Assembly (NCBI RefSeq): GCF_009834765.1
Contig: NZ_WVHP01000001.1
Location: forward strand, 186,001-250,000
From: Saccharibacter sp. EH611
GTDB lineage: Bacteria; Pseudomonadota; Alphaproteobacteria; Acetobacterales; Acetobacteraceae
DNA length: 64,000 nucleotides
Direction of reading: 5' to 3'
Shown here in pieces: positions 21,980-32,607 of this stretch (positions within the stretch are counted from its first letter, which is position 1; the number at the start of each line of letters is the position of its first letter). The notes under the pieces are model-generated. The model ran no database searches. It saw nothing but the letters and a program-made list of their open reading frames with translations, and was not told the origin of the DNA. Made by a program: the position numbers and the translations under genes.

Positions 21980-22054
21980 GCCGGATTAGCACAGTGGTAG
22001 TGCAGCGGTTTTGTAAACCGAAGGTCGGGAGTTCGAATCTCTCATCCGGCACCA
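21980..22054 (+). tRNA. tRNA-Thr (UGU)
   Basis: A complete 75-base cloverleaf including encoded CCA. The acceptor GCCGGAT pairs with ATCCGGC, the D arm is GCAC/GTGC, the anticodon loop TTTGTAA reads TGT, and the T arm has TTCGAAT. Base 27 (G) faces 43 (A), leaving four good pairs in the anticodon stem. Confidence 0.97.
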
Positions 22055-22243
22055 TATTTTCCCCTCCTTTATAAAATAAGAATATACCGGCTTTCAGTGC
22101 TCTTGAGATGATACCCAAATAAGTTGCTGAATTTCAATTTTCATAAAAAGAGAGTTGAACTATTTACTCTTATAACCAAATAAAAAAATTATTGCGCTCA
22201 TCTAGTGCTTTCTAGTGTAAACCTTCTTTTTTACTCTACAACG

Positions 22244-23086
22244 ATGACTTGGCCTTTCCAGATATATGGCACTTACCACCGCCGTAATGATATTCATAAA
22301 CTCTATAAGGGACAGCAACAGAGCGGAATTTCTACTCCAACCAATTGTCCTGGTATTTTTATCTTCACGGGTAATGGAGCGAACCGTGCCGGTTATCAAG
22401 ACGTTTTCCAAAAAGATGGAAGATTGAGGTATACAGGCCAAGGCCAAACGGGCGATATGAAAATGATCGCAGGGAATAAAGCCATCCGTGATCATGTAAA
22501 AAACAGCAAAGATCTACTACTGTTTCAACAAACATGCAGAACTGGCATCGTTCGTTTTAAAGGTTTATTCATCTGTGCTGGGTGGGATTGTGAAATTCAA
22601 AAAGACGCCCAAGGGAACCTACGCAAAGCAATTGTTTTCACTTTGATACCTCAAGATTACGTGTCCAAAAAAGTAAAATCACTCACCATACAGGCACCAG
22701 ATCAAACGCCCCTCCACACTTTAAGAGAAAAGGCGTTCAAAGCGGTCGCTGTTCCAGAGCTAAAGTCTAAGCACACCCCGGGCACCGTTTTCAGCAGAAG
22801 CAAAGCAATACGAGATTATATCTTGGCAAGAGCTGAAGGAAAATGTGAGCATTGCCAGCGTCCCGCTCCTTTTCTAACCGTCCAAGGATACCCTTACTTA
22901 GAGGCGCACCATATTCTCCGTCTAACCGATGGTGGACCTGACCACCCTAAATCAATCATCGCGTTATGCCCCAACTGCCACCGCGAGGCCCATTTTGGAA
23001 ATCAACAAGAACTACTCAAAAATAAATTTCTCGGCATTGTTTCTGTTCTAGAACAGAACCTAGGACACTTACGCTTTAATGATTAA
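22244..23086 (+). CDS. HNH endonuclease with SRA-like N-terminal domain (type IV restriction type)
   Basis: A 280-residue protein from the ATG at 22244; no good ribosome site is visible and the frame is open 13 codons further upstream, so the start is uncertain. Residues about 30-135 resemble the SRA-like domain of modification-dependent HNH endonucleases: RAGYQDVFQKDGRLRYTGQGQ, then GDMKMIAGNKAIRDH and LLLFQQ. The C-terminal HNH-zinc unit has C201/C204, H222-H223 and C242/C245 with H246. It would cut DNA carrying modified bases, such as foreign methylated DNA. No methylase is next to it, which fits a type IV enzyme. It is AT-rich next to its neighbours and lies about 190 bases after the tRNA gene, suggesting horizontal gain. 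Confidence 0.8.
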   Translation: MTWPFQIYGTYHRRNDIHKLYKGQQQSGISTPTNCPGIFIFTGNGANRAGYQDVFQKDGRLRYTGQGQTGDMKMIAGNKAIRDHVKNSKDLLLFQQTCRTGIVRFKGLFICAGWDCEIQKDAQGNLRKAIVFTLIPQDYVSKKVKSLTIQAPDQTPLHTLREKAFKAVAVPELKSKHTPGTVFSRSKAIRDYILARAEGKCEHCQRPAPFLTVQGYPYLEAHHILRLTDGGPDHPKSIIALCPNCHREAHFGNQQELLKNKFLGIVSVLEQNLGHLRFND

Positions 23087-23181: not shown

Positions 23182-24492
23182 TCACGGAGAAGGAGGCACT
23201 CCAAGATCGGGCCACAACGCCTTCATAACAGCTTCGGCAATCACCTTCTGTCCTGTCGGTGTAAAATGCGTACCATCAGCACTACGTAACCTGATTTCAC
23301 GACCATTGCGCTCCATCGTCTCGCTATAGGTATGGTTATGATAATGGAAGAGCTTATCAACCGAAATGTACGTCTGACCTGCCTGTTCCACTTCACTTTG
23401 AAAGAGCTGGTCTAGATAGAGAATACCTGATGATAAACGTTCACGCTTTGTTGCGGGAGGGCCGATCCAGATCACACGCACATCGTGAGCTTTTGCAGCA
23501 TCAAGAATGCTCCGAATACGCCCACGGTAATCCTCCTCCCACACTGGGGAACGGAATTTGAGATAATGGCCATGCCGGGCAGTTGAGGGCATATCCCACG
23601 GGTCATTAGGCCCCAAAAAGACCACAACGGTTGTAATCCCCGGCTTATCAGTCAAGGTTTTCCGTAGCGTTTCTGGCCAATTAAAAAAGCTGGGATACGA
23701 TAGGCCCGTGCTTTGAAGGCTCAAATCATAGCTTTGAATATGGTAATGCCGCCGCAATGCCGTTACCGCATGAGGGGCCACCCCCTGCATCATCGAATCA
23801 CCAATAAAGAGAATATGTTTCTGCCCAACATCTTTTTGGACATGAGAAACAGTAGCCCCATTCTGCTTTACCTCAGAGGGCTGTGCTGGAGAAGACGCTG
23901 GTTCTTTATGAACCGGTTGCGGCAATGGCGCAGCACTTGGTGGTGGAAGTGACGTTTGCTGCGCCGTAGAATTGTTGTGAGCCCTGTCAATTTTTAGGGC
24001 TTTCTCAACCAAAGGCAATGGAGCTGCTTTATGCCCTTGCATGGACGGGGGTTTCTCTTGCACTTTCTGTCGAGGCCCCGGCTTTTCCTCCTCTTTATGA
24101 GAATGACTGAGCGAAGGTGTATGATTCTGCTGAGGAAGCGGTTTTTGCACCTGCACTGGGGCCTCTCCCCCAATATCTAAGTCATCATCCGCACCATTTT
24201 GAGCCGTTACAGCCATACTGCTGCTCATAATGTCCTGATAAGGCGCAAGCCCTCCTTCCAAATGGGAAATCTGAGCACGCAAGCTATTTTCAATCACAGC
24301 TCCCTCTCCCCAAAGAGAAGAGGTAAAGTGGCTCCAAGGGGCAGGTTCATGACGTTCTTGCTGCCATGAATGATCCAGCCCCTGCTGGTTTAACCACAGA
24401 AACAAGCCAGAGCTTAATCCCGTGATTCCCAAGGCCACAAGCACGCTTTTAAGGGTGCGGCGATAAAGAACAACACTCTCAGAAATTGGCAT
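23182..24492 (-). CDS. SGNH/GDSL-type hydrolase or acyltransferase, membrane-anchored
   Basis: A 436-residue protein. The start is the ATG at 24492 (MPISESVVL), 14 bases inside the MBOAT gene end. A single N-terminal helix (about 17-37) anchors it. A long Pro/His/Gln-rich linker covers about 90-205. The SGNH domain has the nucleophile Ser in ILFIGDSMMQGV, the Asn in VVFLGPNDPW and the Asp/His pair in DGTHFTPTGQKVI. It resembles DUF459 family proteins found in exopolysaccharide loci. With the adjacent MBOAT protein it probably moves acetyl groups onto an exported polymer. Confidence 0.82.
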   Translation of the reverse strand: MPISESVVLYRRTLKSVLVALGITGLSSGLFLWLNQQGLDHSWQQERHEPAPWSHFTSSLWGEGAVIENSLRAQISHLEGGLAPYQDIMSSSMAVTAQNGADDDLDIGGEAPVQVQKPLPQQNHTPSLSHSHKEEEKPGPRQKVQEKPPSMQGHKAAPLPLVEKALKIDRAHNNSTAQQTSLPPPSAAPLPQPVHKEPASSPAQPSEVKQNGATVSHVQKDVGQKHILFIGDSMMQGVAPHAVTALRRHYHIQSYDLSLQSTGLSYPSFFNWPETLRKTLTDKPGITTVVVFLGPNDPWDMPSTARHGHYLKFRSPVWEEDYRGRIRSILDAAKAHDVRVIWIGPPATKRERLSSGILYLDQLFQSEVEQAGQTYISVDKLFHYHNHTYSETMERNGREIRLRSADGTHFTPTGQKVIAEAVMKALWPDLGVPPSP

Positions 24493-25945
24493 AAATAAAC
24501 CCTGGCGTTCCAGCTGGAGCAAACATGAAAATCAGCGTTAAAAGCGCCGCTATCCCGAAAGGATATACCCACCACGGCAACCGCTCGCAGTATCCCCAAA
24601 CACGCTTTTTCAGACGATCGAGAAAACCGTAGAAAGCCGTCACAGCGATCAATACCCACAAAATCAGCATATGTGGATCAAACAACTCGCTCGAAAAACA
24701 ATGCGTCAACGAACTTAACAACGTAATGGCATCGTCAAAATTCGCTGAGCGGAAAAAGACCCATGTGAGGCACAGAAAAACAAAGGTGACGAAACGCGCC
24801 CCTTCATGAGCCAAACGCGGCGGAATACTCTGTTTGGCCTCATCGGTCAGGAACATTTTAAAATGCTTAAAGCCATTGAGAACAACAAGCCCTGCCCCAT
24901 GAAGCATTCCCCAAATGAAGAAGTTCATCCCCACACCATGCCACAGGCCAGATAGCCCCATAGCAATCAGAACATTGATGTTCTGCCGAGCAAAACCACA
25001 GCGATTACCACCAAGAGGAATATAAATATAATCGGTGATGAAGCGCGATAATGTGATATGCCACCGCCGCCAAAACTCACTGATATTGGCCGCTAAATAA
25101 GGCGCATTGAAATTTTCCGGCAAATGGAAACCTAATAACAAACCAACCCCACGCACAAGGTCGGTGTAGCCCGAAAAGTTCATATAAATTTGCCACGCAT
25201 ACGCAATAACAGCGGTAAGAGAGGCAACAGGTGTGGCGTTACTCGGTGCACTAAAGACAGGGCTTACGAGATGCTTATCTAAGTAATCACTGACGAGGAA
25301 AAGCTTAAAAAGACCTAAAAGAATAAGACCTACTGCTTGTTTCGGCCATAAAATACGACGCCTCTGAAAAGGCATCAGCTGTGGAAATAAATCCACCGCT
25401 CGGTTAATCGGCCCAGATACAATGCTAGGGAAAAAGCTCGTATAGAGCAGAAACGAAAAGAAATTCTCTTTATTGCCATTGATCGTATGCGCTGGGAATG
25501 CACCACGGTTTTTGACAACTTCCGTGCGCTGAAGCGAGATCACGTAGCTTACAGAATGGAAGACATAAAAGGACAGGCCCAGCGGGGCGACCCCAACCAC
25601 CATCGGCAGAGCAATGGGGAGACCAATCCCATCCAAAAAGCTTTTAAGACTTTCCTGAAGAGCCGCATAAAAACGAAAGAGAAAAAAGAACGTAACGATC
25701 AGCACGCATAAAATAATATTCGTCGCTGTCGTACGTCCTGTTTTGCGCCAGAAAAGCGTTATTCCATAGACGCATCCCGTCCATGCTAAAAGAATGTAGA
25801 AGTTATACGCACTCCCCCAACTTATAAAAAAAAGACTTCCCGCGAGTAAAAGGAGATTTTGAAGGAAAAGAGATGGCTGTAAAATCCAATACAAAACGAA
25901 AAAACATGAAAAGAACTCAAAAAATTCAAGAGATAAAATATTCAT
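24479..25945 (-). CDS. MBOAT-family O-acyltransferase (AlgI/PatA type)
   Basis: A 488-residue integral membrane protein with about ten hydrophobic segments. The MBOAT core has FWRRWHITLSRFITDYIYIPLGGNR and the catalytic His region LSGLWHGVGMNFFIWGMLHG. Such proteins carry acetyl groups across the inner membrane for O-acylation of alginate, cellulose, teichoic acid or peptidoglycan. It overlaps the downstream SGNH gene and follows another SGNH gene by 66 bases. The polymer is not known; no polymerase genes are adjacent. Confidence 0.9.
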   Translation of the reverse strand: MNILSLEFFEFFSCFFVLYWILQPSLFLQNLLLLAGSLFFISWGSAYNFYILLAWTGCVYGITLFWRKTGRTTATNIILCVLIVTFFFLFRFYAALQESLKSFLDGIGLPIALPMVVGVAPLGLSFYVFHSVSYVISLQRTEVVKNRGAFPAHTINGNKENFFSFLLYTSFFPSIVSGPINRAVDLFPQLMPFQRRRILWPKQAVGLILLGLFKLFLVSDYLDKHLVSPVFSAPSNATPVASLTAVIAYAWQIYMNFSGYTDLVRGVGLLLGFHLPENFNAPYLAANISEFWRRWHITLSRFITDYIYIPLGGNRCGFARQNINVLIAMGLSGLWHGVGMNFFIWGMLHGAGLVVLNGFKHFKMFLTDEAKQSIPPRLAHEGARFVTFVFLCLTWVFFRSANFDDAITLLSSLTHCFSSELFDPHMLILWVLIAVTAFYGFLDRLKKRVWGYCERLPWWVYPFGIAALLTLIFMFAPAGTPGFIYANF

Positions 25946-26011
25946 CTATGGATGTTCCGCCACATTAACGATTTTCAGGCCCTCAATAGTCTGTCCTTTG
26001 GTCTAGAATGT

Positions 26012-27274
26012 TTACGGTGCTATGTTAAGTATCTTCATAATATTTTTATAAAGCCCGCGTGCACTCCGTTGATACCCCGGTCGTAATAGATGCACGCGAT
26101 CTTCTTGACCTTCATGATGAGCCCGCCATGAATTAATAGAGCAAGCCCCGCCCATAAAAGCGCGCCAATCCCAATAAAGAACATGCTCCTGTCGGGCAAC
26201 TGCTCTTTGAGTAGCGATGATCTTCTCCAATCCCACCATATGGCGGCAATTTCCCCCTGCGCGAGCAGAAGCATTATCACTCGGCCCCACCATAAGGATC
26301 ACAGAAGTAGGATTTTCTTGGCGTAATTGCCAAATAATATGCACATAGGACTGGCGATATTGATCAAAATCAAGCGTCTTATTCAGAGATTCATTGGTGC
26401 CATACGCTAAAATAATCATCGCAGGATGCAGCTTTTGAAGCTGCGCATACCAATCATTTTGCCAATGTTCTAATAACGATAAAGACGCCCCATTGCTACC
26501 TATCGATGATAACACGACCCCATGAGAGCGGTCTAAATACCACCCCCCTATTTGCGTACCCGCGGCACCATTTTGCACTGTCATGGTCACTGGTAATGTC
26601 AGCGTTATCGGCGTGCTATATCCCCATTGCGATTGCGAAAGAGCCACCTCATGACGGCCATGCCCATCTTGCGCAATCAACAGATTGGGTTGCTCTGTTT
26701 TATAAAAAGCTCGTGCGCGCAATGGCTCCAAGCTCGCACTCTCATCTCGAAAAGCAATGGTCATGGAGCGCTGATGCCCTTGAGGTTGTGCATGACTTCC
26801 ACCGAGAGAGAAAACATCATCAAGATCGCGACGACTGGTTTTCAAAACCCAATCGCTTCCTGCACGCGGCATCACGACCTGTTCATAACGCTGTCCCGGC
26901 ACAGCCAACGGGCTAATAAACCCAACACCACCATTCCCAAAACGCTGCTGAAAGGCGTCTCTTAACTCACCTGTGAAAAAATCTGCAGCTGTATGGGAAT
27001 CTCCAAATTGAACAATATGTACTGTCTGCGTGTTCGCCCTCTGCAAAGCAGAAGAAAAGCGCCACAGGTTCGGATCACCATAATTTGTAAGAGCCATGCT
27101 CTCCGTCGGTAACGGTGCTAAAGGCGCATGATGAACTGGTTTATGATGGGCTCGGAGCTGATGCCCCCCATGTTTCACGCTGTGCTTAGCCGATGCCTCT
27201 GAGACCGTCTGCCCCCCTGCTACAAGCATAAAGGTACTTACAATCATCAGATATTGAGAGAAGGAGAGTGCCAT
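26012..27274 (-). CDS. Exported SGNH/GDSL hydrolase-like protein, His-rich N-terminus
   Basis: A 420-residue protein with the start taken at the ATG at 27274 (MALSFSQYL), which gives a clean signal peptide ending near EASA. AGGG lies 8 bases upstream. A His-rich, basic stretch (KHSVKHGGHQLRAHHKPVHH) follows the signal. The SGNH domain shows the nucleophile in VQFGDSHTAADFFTGELRDAF, then RFGNGGVGFISPL, and a late DRVHLLRPGY block in the position of the Asp/His pair. The form resembles MBOAT-linked esterases or transferases (PatB/Ape1 type). It is the promoter-proximal gene of the three-gene set. Confidence 0.78.
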   Translation of the reverse strand: MALSFSQYLMIVSTFMLVAGGQTVSEASAKHSVKHGGHQLRAHHKPVHHAPLAPLPTESMALTNYGDPNLWRFSSALQRANTQTVHIVQFGDSHTAADFFTGELRDAFQQRFGNGGVGFISPLAVPGQRYEQVVMPRAGSDWVLKTSRRDLDDVFSLGGSHAQPQGHQRSMTIAFRDESASLEPLRARAFYKTEQPNLLIAQDGHGRHEVALSQSQWGYSTPITLTLPVTMTVQNGAAGTQIGGWYLDRSHGVVLSSIGSNGASLSLLEHWQNDWYAQLQKLHPAMIILAYGTNESLNKTLDFDQYRQSYVHIIWQLRQENPTSVILMVGPSDNASARAGGNCRHMVGLEKIIATQRAVARQEHVLYWDWRAFMGGACSINSWRAHHEGQEDRVHLLRPGYQRSARGLYKNIMKILNIAP

Positions 27275-27383
27275 ACCAAAACCCTGTTCATCACGATCGG
27301 CCATCTCTTCATGACCACAAGCCCATGCGCCGTTCACTGTCTTGTTTCACATTATAAAAAACGCCGCCATCCCCTAAATAACA

Positions 27384-27417
27384 AAACGGCCACGACAAAA
27401 CACTGTCGCAGCCGTTT
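27384..27417 (-). terminator. Terminator of the GH32 gene
   Basis: Outer arms AAACGGC (27384-27390) and GCCGTTT (27411-27417), with inner arms CGACA/TGTCG, make a long near-perfect hairpin. On the minus strand it is followed by a T-rich tract. It lies 31 bases past the GH32 stop. Confidence 0.75.
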
Positions 27418-27447: not shown

Positions 27448-29082
27448 TTAGAGATATTCTCTCTCTTTGACTGTCGTTTTCAGCGCATTCACCTCAAACG
27501 TCTTCACATCCAACCCAAGTTGAGAAGAACGCAATGTCAGCGTATCCAAAGCTGCTTTAGGGAAAACGAGGCACGTACCAACCCCAGCACCATCATTGAG
27601 ATACACCTCTAACGTGCACCCATCGAGAATGATTTGTGCTTGGAAGCTCTTGCTATCACGAGGCAATGAGGCCGCAAAATGCGTGCTAAACGTATGATTG
27701 GAAAAGCCTTTCAACCCGCTCCGATCAATCCAGAAACTCTTGGTCTGACGTTGATAACCAAGGCTCAGAACCTCTCCAGCTTTATTGGAGAACTCAATAT
27801 CCAACCATCCATTGGGTTCCACAGCATGTGTCACGTGGGCTTCAAGCCGCACATCAATAGCTGCATCAGTTGGCAGAGCTACGGTCTTCTCCCCCTTATG
27901 CTCATACGCCATCACAAACTGAGAGGATGTCAGTGTTTTAGCCACGAGCGCATCAATACCCACCGGACGCTGAATAAGCATCGGCAAGCCGATCTCATTA
28001 CGGCGTAGATGAAACTGACGCGGCAATGTCATGGCGCCAGACCAACTCTTGGGTGGTTGAAAGAAGCAATATTGCCAGTTCCCAAACCATGATACCCCAC
28101 ATTTCATCCCATCAGGGGCATCATTGAAAATTTGTAACGCGTAGGAATCTTTCGCAAAATCCGTAAAGTCCATAACGTTGTTATCGGCAACGAACGTCTT
28201 ACCATCGAACGAACCAACGAAATATTGAATGGAACTTCCACCCTGTGGCGATCCTGGGTTAAGCGAAATGAACAACACCCATTTCTTTGTCTTTTCGCCT
28301 TCAATCTCCAGCTCAACCAAATTAGGGCATTCAAACTCAACCCCCTGATAACCCGCTGGAGCAAAAGTGCTTAAATGTTCCCATTTGATCAGATTCCGAG
28401 ATCCGTAAAACAGGATTTCATGCGTATAAGCTGACGCAAGAACAAGCACCCATGTCTGAGAGGGTGCATGCCAGAAAACTTGCGGATCACGCGTGTCAGG
28501 ATCGTTTAAATCCAGCACAGGATTATGGGCAAAGTCTTCGTAATGATTCCCACCATCACCACTCCATGCAGCATGGATTGTGGATTTGTGGTTTTTACGA
28601 ATAGAACGATCATCCCGTGTATAAAGCGCGACTAATCCACCCTTCATCTGGTTCGCCGGTAGAGGGGCCTTTCCTGGCGGGAAAAGTGAAGAGGTATTTT
28701 GCCCATCAACTACCACACTCCCAGTAAAAGCCATCCCTTTTTCGTCACTATTGACGATGGCATGACCACGATCTTCCCACTGATACAGATCGGGACTAAC
28801 AGCATGGCCCCAATCCACCTCATTGATCAGATTGTGCAATGGACGGAACTGATAATAGAGATGATACTGCTTACCATCATACACCAATCCGCATGGATCA
28901 TTCACAAAGCCAAAAGACGGGCTGAAGTGAATATGCGGACGATACAATTTATCGTAAAAATCATCAGTCATCGTCAAAGACACAGCGCTACTCCCTTTCG
29001 AATTTCCTGCTGCCATCAGTACCATTGACACTGAGGCCAGCGAAAAGCCGAACCCTCTGCGGGTCAATCCCGTCTTTTCCAT
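27448..29082 (-). CDS. GH32 fructanase (levanase/inulinase type), Tat-exported
   Basis: A 544-residue glycoside hydrolase family 32 enzyme that releases fructose from fructans or sucrose. The start is the ATG at 29082 with GGAG about 9 bases upstream. A Tat motif (T-R-R-G-F, residues 7-11) and hydrophobic run follow. The triad is present: nucleophile D62, D199 in DTRDPQVFW, and acid/base E251 in FECPNL. The first motif reads N61-D-P-C-G in place of the usual NDPNG, and lacks the WM that precedes it. The C-terminal beta-sandwich runs from about residue 390. No levansucrase is adjacent. Confidence 0.88.
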   Translation of the reverse strand: MEKTGLTRRGFGFSLASVSMVLMAAGNSKGSSAVSLTMTDDFYDKLYRPHIHFSPSFGFVNDPCGLVYDGKQYHLYYQFRPLHNLINEVDWGHAVSPDLYQWEDRGHAIVNSDEKGMAFTGSVVVDGQNTSSLFPPGKAPLPANQMKGGLVALYTRDDRSIRKNHKSTIHAAWSGDGGNHYEDFAHNPVLDLNDPDTRDPQVFWHAPSQTWVLVLASAYTHEILFYGSRNLIKWEHLSTFAPAGYQGVEFECPNLVELEIEGEKTKKWVLFISLNPGSPQGGSSIQYFVGSFDGKTFVADNNVMDFTDFAKDSYALQIFNDAPDGMKCGVSWFGNWQYCFFQPPKSWSGAMTLPRQFHLRRNEIGLPMLIQRPVGIDALVAKTLTSSQFVMAYEHKGEKTVALPTDAAIDVRLEAHVTHAVEPNGWLDIEFSNKAGEVLSLGYQRQTKSFWIDRSGLKGFSNHTFSTHFAASLPRDSKSFQAQIILDGCTLEVYLNDGAGVGTCLVFPKAALDTLTLRSSQLGLDVKTFEVNALKTTVKEREYL

Positions 29083-29244
29083 ACATGCTCCATCAGAACA
29101 AATCGCCACAGGAGACAAAGAGAGCACCAGACCATCTCTGACTTGCTTTTACGTTAAGCGCTCTATTCTGCCTTACCTGTATCTCGACGATACGATGAAA
29201 ACGTGGCGTTATTCTGAACGGAAGCGTAATTCATAAAAAATATT

Positions 29245-30180: not shown

Positions 30181-32607
30181 ATGACTCCTGAAAAAACGTC
30201 TTTTATCCTTTCAGGAGTTACCCTTCTTTGCGTCTGCTTAGACCCGCAGGCTTTGGCTAAGACGTTACTAACGTCTGCGTCCGCTAACCATCCTCATCAC
30301 CTCATCCATGCTTCCCATAAGCCTCATCATCCTCGTAGCCTCACAGCTCAGGGTGAAGAACGGTTAAGCGTTCATATGCGCCATCCAGCTCGTGCTCATG
30401 GGGCAACCGATGTCGTCGGGCGTGACACACTGAATCATTTTGTGACGGGGACAAGCCCACTGCAAGTATTAGCCCTCACAACACCCGGTGCTAATTTTGC
30501 AACAGATGATGCTCTTGGCTTAGATACGGTCGCCAACACACTCTATGTTCGCGGCTTTAATCAAACCCAGCTTGGGGAGACATTGGATGGAATTCCCCTT
30601 GGCGGACAGGGTTTTCATAACTGGAACGGCTTAGGGATTGATCAGGCTGAAATTCAGGAAAATGTAAGCAGCCTTACGATGTCACAAGGCGCAGGGGCTC
30701 TGGATGTCCCGTCGGCCCAAACACTTGGCGGTGCGCTAACCTTCACCTCCAGCGACCCTAAGAAAAAAGCAGGCGGGCAGGTCAGCCAGATGTTTGGTAG
30801 CTATAATGGCTTCCGCACCTTTGTACGTGCCGATAGTGGCGAGCTTAATAAAAGCGGCACTAAATTTTATATCGCCTATGCCCGCACCGCCCAGGATTTA
30901 TGGAAAGGATATGGCTATCAACAAGAGCAGCAGATCAATGCAAAATTGGTTCAGCCATTTCAAGACCGTGGAAAAATCACCGCGATTTTCGACTATTCCA
31001 TCATGCCAGAATATAACTATCTCGGCCTCACAAAGAATATGTGGCAGCGTTTAGGACGCAACACGACCTACCTTAAACCAGACTATAACCGCGCTAAAGA
31101 ATACGCGAATTATGCTCAAAATGGTGGCGTCCCTCCTCAATATCAGGGCATCCTCTCAAATGATGAAATCAGTGATTTCGCCTATGACGGAACCCAAACA
31201 CAAGAAAATATCCTTACCGCTTTGACAGGAGAATTCCGCTTAGCCTCTTGGCTAAGTTCCAAAACCATCGCCTATGCGCATCTCTCTGGTGGGCGGTATA
31301 ATGGGACTGACCCCAACCTTACGTCTCCAACAAGCGGGGTCAATATGGCTATGGAAAGCGGGGATCCTGAAACACGACGGGTCGGATTTGTTCAGAACTT
31401 TTCCATCCATGCCCCCCAACATAATGAGATCAAAACTGGGGTATGGTATGAAAATGACCATTTCAGCTACCCTGCCTACGTGTATGAAGATGACGTTGAT
31501 CATGCTCGCTCCTCCATTAACTTTCATGGAGGTGGAGGCGAAAAATGGTTTAGTGACAGCTTCAACACCAACACGTTCCAATTTTACCTACAGGATACCT
31601 ACAGGCCCCTCCATGGTCTCGACCTAAGCGCGGGTTTCCGCTCGCTTGTCCAAACAACACGCGGGGGCAGCACCTATGATAATACAGCCGGACTCGCAGC
31701 TCAGGGATGGAACACCTACTACATCCATCCAGCTTCAGGCTCACTTACTGCCTCCAACGCATTTCTCCCTCATGTCAGCCTAGATTATCACTTTCTCCAG
31801 CATCACGAACTTTATATTGATATTGCTGAAAATATGCGCGCCTATGATTACACCCATCAACTGTCTAGCGGCAGCCCTTGGACGCGCCTTGGCAATGCCA
31901 ACAACCCTGCTCAATCAGTTTTTGACGCCAATAAAAGCAAACTCCGCCCAGAGCGGACATGGAATTATGTGATTGGCTATCGCTTTAACAGCCATTCCTT
32001 TTCAGCAAGCGCCGATTTTTACCATACAGACTATTATAACCGCCTCGCCGCCATCACAAACGGCACCACGGGACGTAACACCTATGGTTCTTTCACCAAT
32101 ATTGGTCGCGAAACCATGAACGGTGTTGATGTTGCCGGCACGATCCGTCCCCTCCCTGGGCTCGCGATTACCAATAGCTTCAGCTGGAATGATGCTAAAT
32201 ATCAATATTCACAACATCTGTATGATCGTGCTAGCGGGAGGAATGTCAGCATTAAAGGGATGAGGCAAGTCTATTATCCCAAATTTATGTATAAGGCGAA
32301 TATTAATTACACCATTGGCCATGCTTCTATGAACTTCAATACAACCTATACCAGCACACGCTACACAACCTATACAAATGACACCAAGATTCCTTCTTAT
32401 TGGAGCTCCAGCCTGACCGCGAGCTATGATTTCGGAAAAATGGGTTTTGTGCACAACTTTAAAACGAGCTTCGGGGTCACTAACCTTTTTAATCAAAATT
32501 ATATCGGAGGTGTTTACGGGGCAGCTTCACTCACAGGTGATAATAACGCCAATCTTTACGTTGCCGCACCTCGACAATTTTTTGGCACCGTTTCTGCGCA
32601 GTTCTAA
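30181..32607 (+). CDS. TonB-dependent outer-membrane receptor
   Basis: An 808-residue receptor with a signal peptide ending near PQALA-KT. A His-rich stretch (HPHHLIHASHKPHHPRS) precedes a possible TonB box. The plug domain covers about 85-195 (NTLYVRGFNQTQLGETLDGIPL) and a 22-strand barrel follows, ending in RQFFGTVSAQF with the C-terminal Phe. The ATG has AAAGGAG about 7 bases upstream. The ligand is unknown; iron-chelate and sugar receptors look alike at this level. No TonB, ABC or sigma/anti-sigma genes are near. Confidence 0.9.
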   Translation: MTPEKTSFILSGVTLLCVCLDPQALAKTLLTSASANHPHHLIHASHKPHHPRSLTAQGEERLSVHMRHPARAHGATDVVGRDTLNHFVTGTSPLQVLALTTPGANFATDDALGLDTVANTLYVRGFNQTQLGETLDGIPLGGQGFHNWNGLGIDQAEIQENVSSLTMSQGAGALDVPSAQTLGGALTFTSSDPKKKAGGQVSQMFGSYNGFRTFVRADSGELNKSGTKFYIAYARTAQDLWKGYGYQQEQQINAKLVQPFQDRGKITAIFDYSIMPEYNYLGLTKNMWQRLGRNTTYLKPDYNRAKEYANYAQNGGVPPQYQGILSNDEISDFAYDGTQTQENILTALTGEFRLASWLSSKTIAYAHLSGGRYNGTDPNLTSPTSGVNMAMESGDPETRRVGFVQNFSIHAPQHNEIKTGVWYENDHFSYPAYVYEDDVDHARSSINFHGGGGEKWFSDSFNTNTFQFYLQDTYRPLHGLDLSAGFRSLVQTTRGGSTYDNTAGLAAQGWNTYYIHPASGSLTASNAFLPHVSLDYHFLQHHELYIDIAENMRAYDYTHQLSSGSPWTRLGNANNPAQSVFDANKSKLRPERTWNYVIGYRFNSHSFSASADFYHTDYYNRLAAITNGTTGRNTYGSFTNIGRETMNGVDVAGTIRPLPGLAITNSFSWNDAKYQYSQHLYDRASGRNVSIKGMRQVYYPKFMYKANINYTIGHASMNFNTTYTSTRYTTYTNDTKIPSYWSSSLTASYDFGKMGFVHNFKTSFGVTNLFNQNYIGGVYGAASLTGDNNANLYVAAPRQFFGTVSAQF

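Follow-up and report, generated by a model that had tools for sequence, protein, structure and literature searches.

Peptidoglycan O-acetylation (OAP) is usually associated with virulence. For clusters containing an ape1a-type gene, a strict order of pat, ape2 (now patB) and ape1a was reported by Weadge et al. in 2005 (PMC1199599), the same text giving GDSH and Dx(V/T)H as the motifs of Ape1. According to PMC12148441, PatA uses an invariant His to auto-acetylate a Tyr in its C-terminal FXYXXF peptide, with PatB passing the acetyl group from this Tyr to a peptidoglycan mimic; the hexapeptide employed there, FIYANF, is that of N. gonorrhoeae. Here, we describe a cluster of three genes in a 64,000-nucleotide stretch of DNA (the window) from Saccharibacter sp. 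EH611 (contig NZ_WVHP01000001.1, positions 186,001 to 250,000; positions below are those of the window). This strain was obtained from an Anthophora bee and has an assembly of 25 contigs and 2.28 Mb (PMC7171202), the genome analyzed having 25 contigs and 2,279,077 bases. The trio very probably constitutes an OAP cluster encoding Ape1, PatA and PatB. As such it would be a known kind of system, with peptidoglycan most likely as the polymer, and the new aspects would be the displaced ape1 and the host, which was not expected: an acetic acid bacterium associated with bees and flowers, whose cluster looks borrowed from enterobacteria, with one gene now in front. Literature searches on O-acetylation in Saccharibacter and acetic acid bacteria found no description of this cluster in titles and abstract openings, subscription papers being outside their scope.

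Identity of the three genes

The three genes lie on the minus strand of the window in the transcription order ape1, patA and patB, as given by the list of open reading frames (ORFs) and confirmed by Pfam, NCBIfam and PDB matches far above the chance level. An initial annotation, made from the sequence alone, had described this arrangement and its resemblance to PatA/PatB/Ape1 sets, and both points were borne out by the family and structure matches. It had left open the polymer and the division of labour between the two SGNH proteins; these can be assigned because of the homology of the trio to known families, one SGNH protein matching the PatB (DUF459) family and the other the Ape1 (Ape1_N) family, with solved structures available.

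The ape1 gene (26012 to 27337, minus strand) is predicted to encode a peptidoglycan O-acetylesterase, with a longest frame of 441 amino acids (aa). Matches were obtained to Ape1_N (2.8e-12; 47.5 bits against a cut-off of 27) and Lipase_GDSL_2 in Pfam and to PDB 4k3u over residues 71 to 436 (E = 5.6e-45), with zero matches in NCBIfam. The motifs GDSH and DRVH are present, fitting the GDSH and Dx(V/T)H patterns. Residues Ser114, Gly280, Asn315, Asp413 and His416 (numbered on the long ORF) are kept, the Ser, Asn, Asp and His being found in 60/60 aligned rows and the Gly in 56/60. By eye, the ATG at 27274 (MALSFSQY), the end used in the initial annotation, has a possible AGGG 7 nucleotides (nt) upstream, and the in-frame GTG at 27337, which extends the ORF, has no obvious ribosome-binding site. 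The protein is probably an exported SGNH esterase with an Ape1_N domain, export and membrane anchoring having been judged here and below by eye from hydrophobic N-termini; Ape1_N would appear to mark the Ape1a subfamily described in PMC1199599. The His-rich start pointed out in the initial annotation is real, with nine His residues before GDSH in both Saccharibacter proteins, compared with 0 to 6 in the 46 further non-alphaproteobacterial rows and 0 to 21 in 12 alphaproteobacterial rows (the value of 21 belongs to an ORF whose start is over-long). It was discarded as a special feature, neither a partner nor a motif having been found for these residues.

The patA gene (24479 to 25945, minus strand) is predicted to encode an acetyl carrier protein of 488 aa (Pfam MBOAT, 2.5e-21), the sole MBOAT match in the whole genome. 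His296 and His336 are present, and the C terminus reads PGFIYANF, with F483, Y485 and F488 forming the F-x-Y-x-x-F pattern and Tyr485 as the putative carrier residue; FIYANF is identical to the N. gonorrhoeae PatA tag. Both MBOAT His residues and the F-x-Y-x-x-F pattern were kept in 57/57 aligned rows, drawn from 61 loci of which one lacked PatA and three were removed as partial or unlike. The two PDB matches of PatA were both DltB proteins. PatA ORFs of 628 to 649 aa, ~150 aa above the usual length, were seen in one genome group from the order of genome G443 (loci L128, L129 and L131), and one in-frame TAG is present within the PatA frame of L142/L162 (G1420, enterobacterial).

The patB gene (23182 to 24492, minus strand) is predicted to encode a peptidoglycan O-acetyltransferase with a hydrophobic N-terminal anchor, a linker of ~200 residues and an SGNH domain. 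Its start is probably the ATG at 24492, which has an AGGG 7 nt upstream, and not the TTG at 24522; the product has 436 aa from the former and 446 aa from the latter, the start of the longest ORF, from which residues are numbered. PatB matched DUF459 (4.3e-63), NCBIfam PatB (see below), gonococcal PatB (7tjb; E = 3.3e-52) and Campylobacter PatB (8tlb; E = 1.6e-36). The triad of Ser243, Asp416 and His419 and the block III Asn306 are present. Block II has an unusual Ser271, equivalent to Ser161 of N. gonorrhoeae PatB (NgPatB) and fitting the occurrence of Ser or Asn in place of Gly, and in the alignment Leu363 is kept at the position of Leu250 in the hydrophobic wall of NgPatB. The long linker noted in the initial annotation exists, there being 232 residues ahead of the SGNH domain in the longest ORF, yet it lies within the range of relatives (median of 173; range of 115 to 363; n = 45, including two Saccharibacter).

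The patA and patB genes overlap by 14 nt (24479 to 24492, minus strand), the patB ATG beginning within the codon for the acetyl-carrier Tyr. This overlap, open into PatB, was present in 31/48 loci compared, both Saccharibacter included, and absent from 17; it was found in 11/11 loci labelled Enterobacteriaceae (see below) that have patA and patB. In the 31 loci the patB start codon is built from the codons for Tyr and the following Ala (TAT GCN). The overlapping start may be a partial reason for the Ala after Tyr in this PatA type. This Ala is also kept in several loci without the overlap.

Distribution, gene order and origin

Comparison of gene neighbourhoods in acetic acid bacteria, as proposed in the initial annotation, was carried out, and the Ape1_N type was found in 2/397 sampled Acetobacteraceae genomes, both of them Saccharibacter, and in zero outside this genus; an earlier, overlapping sample gave 1/150. 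The counts were 1/385 for Alphaproteobacteria, 3/398 for the phylum, 37/83 for the family of genome G254 and 20/247 for the order of G443. The names used for the latter groups are our inferences: the G254 family is called Neisseriaceae because N. gonorrhoeae nests there and because some loci contain DNA uptake 10-mers (17 to 31 exact copies each in 6/21 longer fetched loci, 0 to 2 in the other 15), family f49 is called Enterobacteriaceae because Proteus mirabilis nests within it, and the order of G443 is taken as "gamma". None of the gonococcal 10-mers was present in the locus of S. floricola DSM 15669 (L003), the Saccharibacter locus in which they were counted.

DUF459 was above its cut-off in 10/150 Acetobacteraceae genomes, including the window genome. 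In the nine others (loci L061 to L070), an Ape1-like gene adjoins DUF459 and a PatA-like match is present in each genome, this match being partial in one; one genome (G059) has two loci, one of them without PatA. By sequence, these nine clusters are of a separate, alphaproteobacterial OAP-like type: no passing Ape1_N was obtained for the Ape1-like proteins (4/4 tested) or for one from Sphingomonas, the PatA tag was FIYFQF in 8/8 rows versus FIYANF in Saccharibacter, and PatB was upstream or divergent. Neither Ape1 nor PatA was found near L071, L072 and L073, which are sub-cut-off DUF459 matches in two Acetobacteraceae genomes and a weak extra locus. Among the PLSDB plasmids, 12 records matched Ape1, none of them close to Saccharibacter, and Sphingomonas and Methylorubrum replicons had the alphaproteobacterial cluster type. 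The order PatA>PatB>Ape1 was seen on a 159-kb plasmid of Citrobacter portucalensis (L117) and a 200-kb plasmid of Acinetobacter junii (L118), indicating that an OAP cluster can sit on mobile replicons. Two of the PLSDB "plasmids" were of chromosome size (L116, Proteus mirabilis, 4.08 Mb; L119, N. gonorrhoeae, 2.17 Mb).

Gene order was compared over 61 loci. PatA>PatB>Ape1 was observed in 46 loci, comprising every non-alphaproteobacterial locus outside Saccharibacter with all three genes assigned, the PatA or PatB frame being fragmentary in three (NeisG619, G1066 and G1016). These 46 had been selected for an Ape1_N or PatA match and represent subsets of such matches (21/37 for the G254 family, 13/20 for the order of G443 and 10/20 for a further scan). 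The two Saccharibacter loci had Ape1>PatA>PatB, 10 alphaproteobacterial loci had other orders, and three loci were incomplete. Over-long ORF starts led to odd sorting of two alphaproteobacterial loci (AcetG072 and AcetG015), and a 47th non-alphaproteobacterial locus (EntG1462) had an MBOAT match only. The trio was together in 46/47 fetched non-alphaproteobacterial loci outside Saccharibacter, a linkage to an already characterized gene set with which the notion of an open assignment did not survive. The same-strand orders A-B-E, B-E-A and E-A-B (E being ape1) are cyclic shifts of each other. As the strict order is broken in Saccharibacter while the patA/patB overlap is kept, the simplest explanation would be that ape1 has moved.

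Phylogenetic analyses placed the Saccharibacter cluster near enterobacterial ones. In quick IQ-TREE trees of single genes, supported by SH-aLRT only, Saccharibacter grouped with Proteus, G443, the Citrobacter plasmid and G988 at 99% for PatA (49/52 loci), with Proteus, G443 and the Citrobacter plasmid at 90% for Ape1 (52/52 loci), and with the Citrobacter plasmid and G988 at 85% for PatB (49 rows). A concatenation of the three genes was made for 49/61 loci, nine being left out for incomplete or doubtful genes and three as near-copies. Saccharibacter fell inside a clade of 12 rows, 10 of them from Enterobacteriaceae, that had an SH-aLRT of 99%, the inner forks having 88 to 91%. An origin from Neisseriaceae (with the Acinetobacter plasmid and G1071) was rejected in approximately unbiased (AU) tests (p = 0.0007 for PatA and 0.017 for Ape1).

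A different history, in which the cluster is ancestral to the Acetobacteraceae and was lost elsewhere, Saccharibacter having kept and reordered an old version, would fit the presence of DUF459, Ape1-like and MBOAT loci in nine other genomes of 150 and the location of Ape1 ahead of PatA in those nine too. The Ape1 tree alone is also compatible with an alphaproteobacterial grouping (AU p = 0.35). However, placement of all alphaproteobacterial rows in one clade was rejected by PatA alone (p = 0.011), and joining of Saccharibacter to the other Acetobacteraceae was rejected in the concatenation (p = 0.0004). Together with the lack of a passing Ape1_N (4/4) and the FIYFQF tag (8/8) in other Acetobacteraceae and the restriction of Ape1_N to Saccharibacter (2/397), these results make an ancestral cluster improbable. 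At the level of sequence they demonstrate an origin apart from the other Acetobacteraceae clusters, and acquisition from enterobacteria or their kin would be most likely, the transfer and its direction both being inferred.

All three frames are intact in two Saccharibacter species, the closest named locus being that of S. floricola, with a PatA 95% identical. Ratios of nonsynonymous to synonymous substitution rates (dN/dS) between these two loci were 0.072 for patA, 0.070 for ape1 and 0.115 for patB, compared with 0.019 to 0.090 for four neighbours; these sequence-based values demonstrate purifying selection on the cluster. Its dS of 0.24 to 0.31 is close to or lower than the values for the neighbours (0.30 to 0.54), indicating that the cluster was probably present before the species split.

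Several observations weigh against the interpretation of the trio as a functional OAP cluster acquired from enterobacteria. PatB scored 250.5 bits with NCBIfam PatB (NF045704), under the equivalog cut-off of 580, which serves annotation and does not act as a definition, and the best stretch covered residues 207 to 435 only. Ile304 of the NgPatB wall is replaced by Thr418 in both Saccharibacter, a Thr being found in only 4/56 rows and Ile or Val in most. The order Ape1>PatA>PatB departs from that called strict for Ape1a clusters, which is a reported regularity and not part of the definition of a cluster. In addition to the result with Ape1 alone, a tree in which the Enterobacteriaceae were held together without Saccharibacter was not rejected (p = 0.078), and these two tests leave the donor and the direction of transfer unfixed; the long Saccharibacter stem (1.18) makes the exact donor unsure. 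In GC content, the cluster does not clearly stand out as foreign (0.45 to 0.50 versus 0.44 to 0.56 for neighbours), and base composition, including GC3, was discarded as evidence of transfer since it is like that of the neighbours. The dN/dS of patB is slightly higher than those of the four neighbours measured, and literature searches gave no O-acetyl peptidoglycan measurement in Saccharibacter.

Polymer, probable transcription unit and variable slot

Acetic acid bacteria produce exopolysaccharides, and the MBOAT and two SGNH proteins could, alternatively, act on a secreted polymer as an alginate-, cellulose- or acetan-like O-acetylation set. MBOAT-SGNH pairs do serve alginate and cellulose too, according to PMC12148441, and a likeness to such sets had been raised in the initial annotation. 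Against this stand the matches of PatB and Ape1 to PatB- and Ape1-type families and structures, and the fact that the genome has a single MBOAT match. The neighbours scanned included no polymerase or export gene, as the initial annotation had stated, the alginate polymerase and other exopolysaccharide genes not having been searched for genome-wide. BcsB was found in 0/3 genus genomes, a control search detecting it in 2/14 known genomes. The alginate- or cellulose-type likeness is, therefore, disfavoured, and action on an exopolysaccharide is very unlikely.

The initial annotation had also assigned the three genes to one transcript. The layout it relied on stands: the genes share one strand, ape1 and patA are separated by 66 nt, the patA and patB frames overlap, and a terminator scan detected a hairpin of 15 pairs (27384 to 27417, minus strand) between the GH32 gene and ape1, a likely upstream operon limit. 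These features make a single transcript likely, the transcript itself being deduced from the layout. The hairpin is supportive rather than decisive, since the region contained 14 terminator-like sites versus 9.9 ± 3.6 in shuffles. A promoter scan was uninformative (8 sites versus 12.1 expected).

Neighbours of the cluster are genes for an HNH protein, tRNA-Thr, GH32, QueH and a TonB receptor, with ApbC and a DegP-like protease recognized by eye. The remaining genome of the genus (G101; 2.1 Mb) is collinear with the window from 10.7 to 34.2 kb and defines a variable slot with tRNA-Thr(TGT) (21980 to 22054, plus strand) as its conserved left border and the GH32 glycosidase gene (27448 to 29127, minus strand; Pfam GH32N, 8.5e-68; syntenic and 78% identical in G101) as its right border. 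In G101, a TonB-receptor gene replaces both the HNH gene and the cluster, and zero matches were obtained for Ape1_N, DUF459 and PatA, the last being present in 2/3 Saccharibacter genomes. With three genomes, a loss in G101 is not distinguishable from a gain in the other two. Decay of a non-functional import, to which this absence and the other gene in the slot could point, is highly improbable in view of the intact frames in two species, the intact catalytic residues and the dN/dS of 0.07 to 0.12. The tRNA-Thr gene was discarded as an integration site: its exact last 20, 25 and 30 nt are single copy in the window and in L003, so that no attachment-site copy is present.

The TonB-dependent receptor in the G101 slot (L077, 10291 to 12651) is 36% identical to that at 30181 to 32607 of the window. 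The HNH-endonuclease-like gene lies by tRNA-Thr (22205 to 23086); its S. floricola copy (L003, 10865 to 11746) is seemingly broken by an in-frame stop, and no HNH match was found in the G101 stretch. The GH32 glycosidase, found at this location in all three genus genomes, has a twin-arginine-like N terminus by eye (TRRGFGF) and is perhaps an exported sucrose or levan hydrolase.

Possible role and comparison with known systems

By analogy with the described enzymes, PatA would move acetyl from cytoplasmic acetyl-CoA to the Tyr of its C-terminal FIYANF peptide, from which membrane-anchored PatB would accept it via the Ser-His-Asp triad and transfer it to peptidoglycan, at the C6-OH of MurNAc. 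In the periplasm, Ape1 would take the acetyl off again, and this cycle of addition and removal would let the cell tune how lytic transglycosylases and lysozyme turn over its wall. The benefit may lie in growth under high osmolarity, in resistance to the lysozyme of insects, or in both. In a 2026 paper on non-pathogenic Z. mobilis (PMC13101528), PatA O-acetylates peptidoglycan and patA is needed for growth under salt, and in PMC4438321 S. floricola ranks with the most sugar-tolerant of the bacteria tested. A role in osmotic growth is plausible in the light of these two reports. Resistance to bee lysozyme is a plausible role as well. For Acetobacteraceae, a review (PMC6127315) mentions another peptidoglycan change, meso-DAP amidation. 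It is conceivable, if doubtful, that a captured enterobacterial operon is one of the traits enabling Saccharibacter to persist with bees and to grow at the very low water activity of nectar, pollen and honey, its main role being osmotic growth and not virulence. If so, within the genus the presence or absence of the cluster would go along with sugar tolerance or resistance to lysozyme. The occurrence of the cluster in two of three genus genomes offers a natural comparison between osmotic growth and defence against insect lysozyme.

O-acetylation sets for alginate and cellulose show linkage to a polymer synthase and have other SGNH partners. AlgI/AlgJ/AlgX (alginate) and WssH/WssI (cellulose) likewise combine an MBOAT protein with an SGNH partner or partners, and a shared tyrosine-shuttle model is proposed in PMC12148441; unlike these sets, the Saccharibacter cluster has no polymer synthase among the neighbours scanned. 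DltB/DltD (D-alanylation) has the MBOAT fold in common with PatA, but PatA scored only 133.4 bits for DltB (TIGR04091) against a cut-off of 375. Alphaproteobacterial OAP clusters of the Ape1b type (Zymomonas mobilis, Sphingomonas and other Acetobacteraceae) share MBOAT, DUF459-like and Ape1-like proteins and an Ape1 before PatA, the Z. mobilis layout being taken from its description in PMC1199599. They differ in lacking a passing Ape1_N (four Acetobacteraceae and one Sphingomonas tested), in a tag of FIYFQF or FIYYQF and in an upstream or divergent PatB. The patA-patB-ape1a clusters of N. gonorrhoeae and Enterobacterales have the same three proteins, the FxYxxF tag and the 14-nt patA/patB overlap, and identity between Saccharibacter and P. 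mirabilis is 43% for PatA, 50% for the PatB SGNH domain and 41% for Ape1. Relative to these clusters, Saccharibacter differs in its acetic acid bacterium host, in the Thr of the PatB wall and in having ape1 ahead of patA where they have it behind patB, a departure from the strict order described for Ape1a-type clusters in 2005 (PMC1199599).

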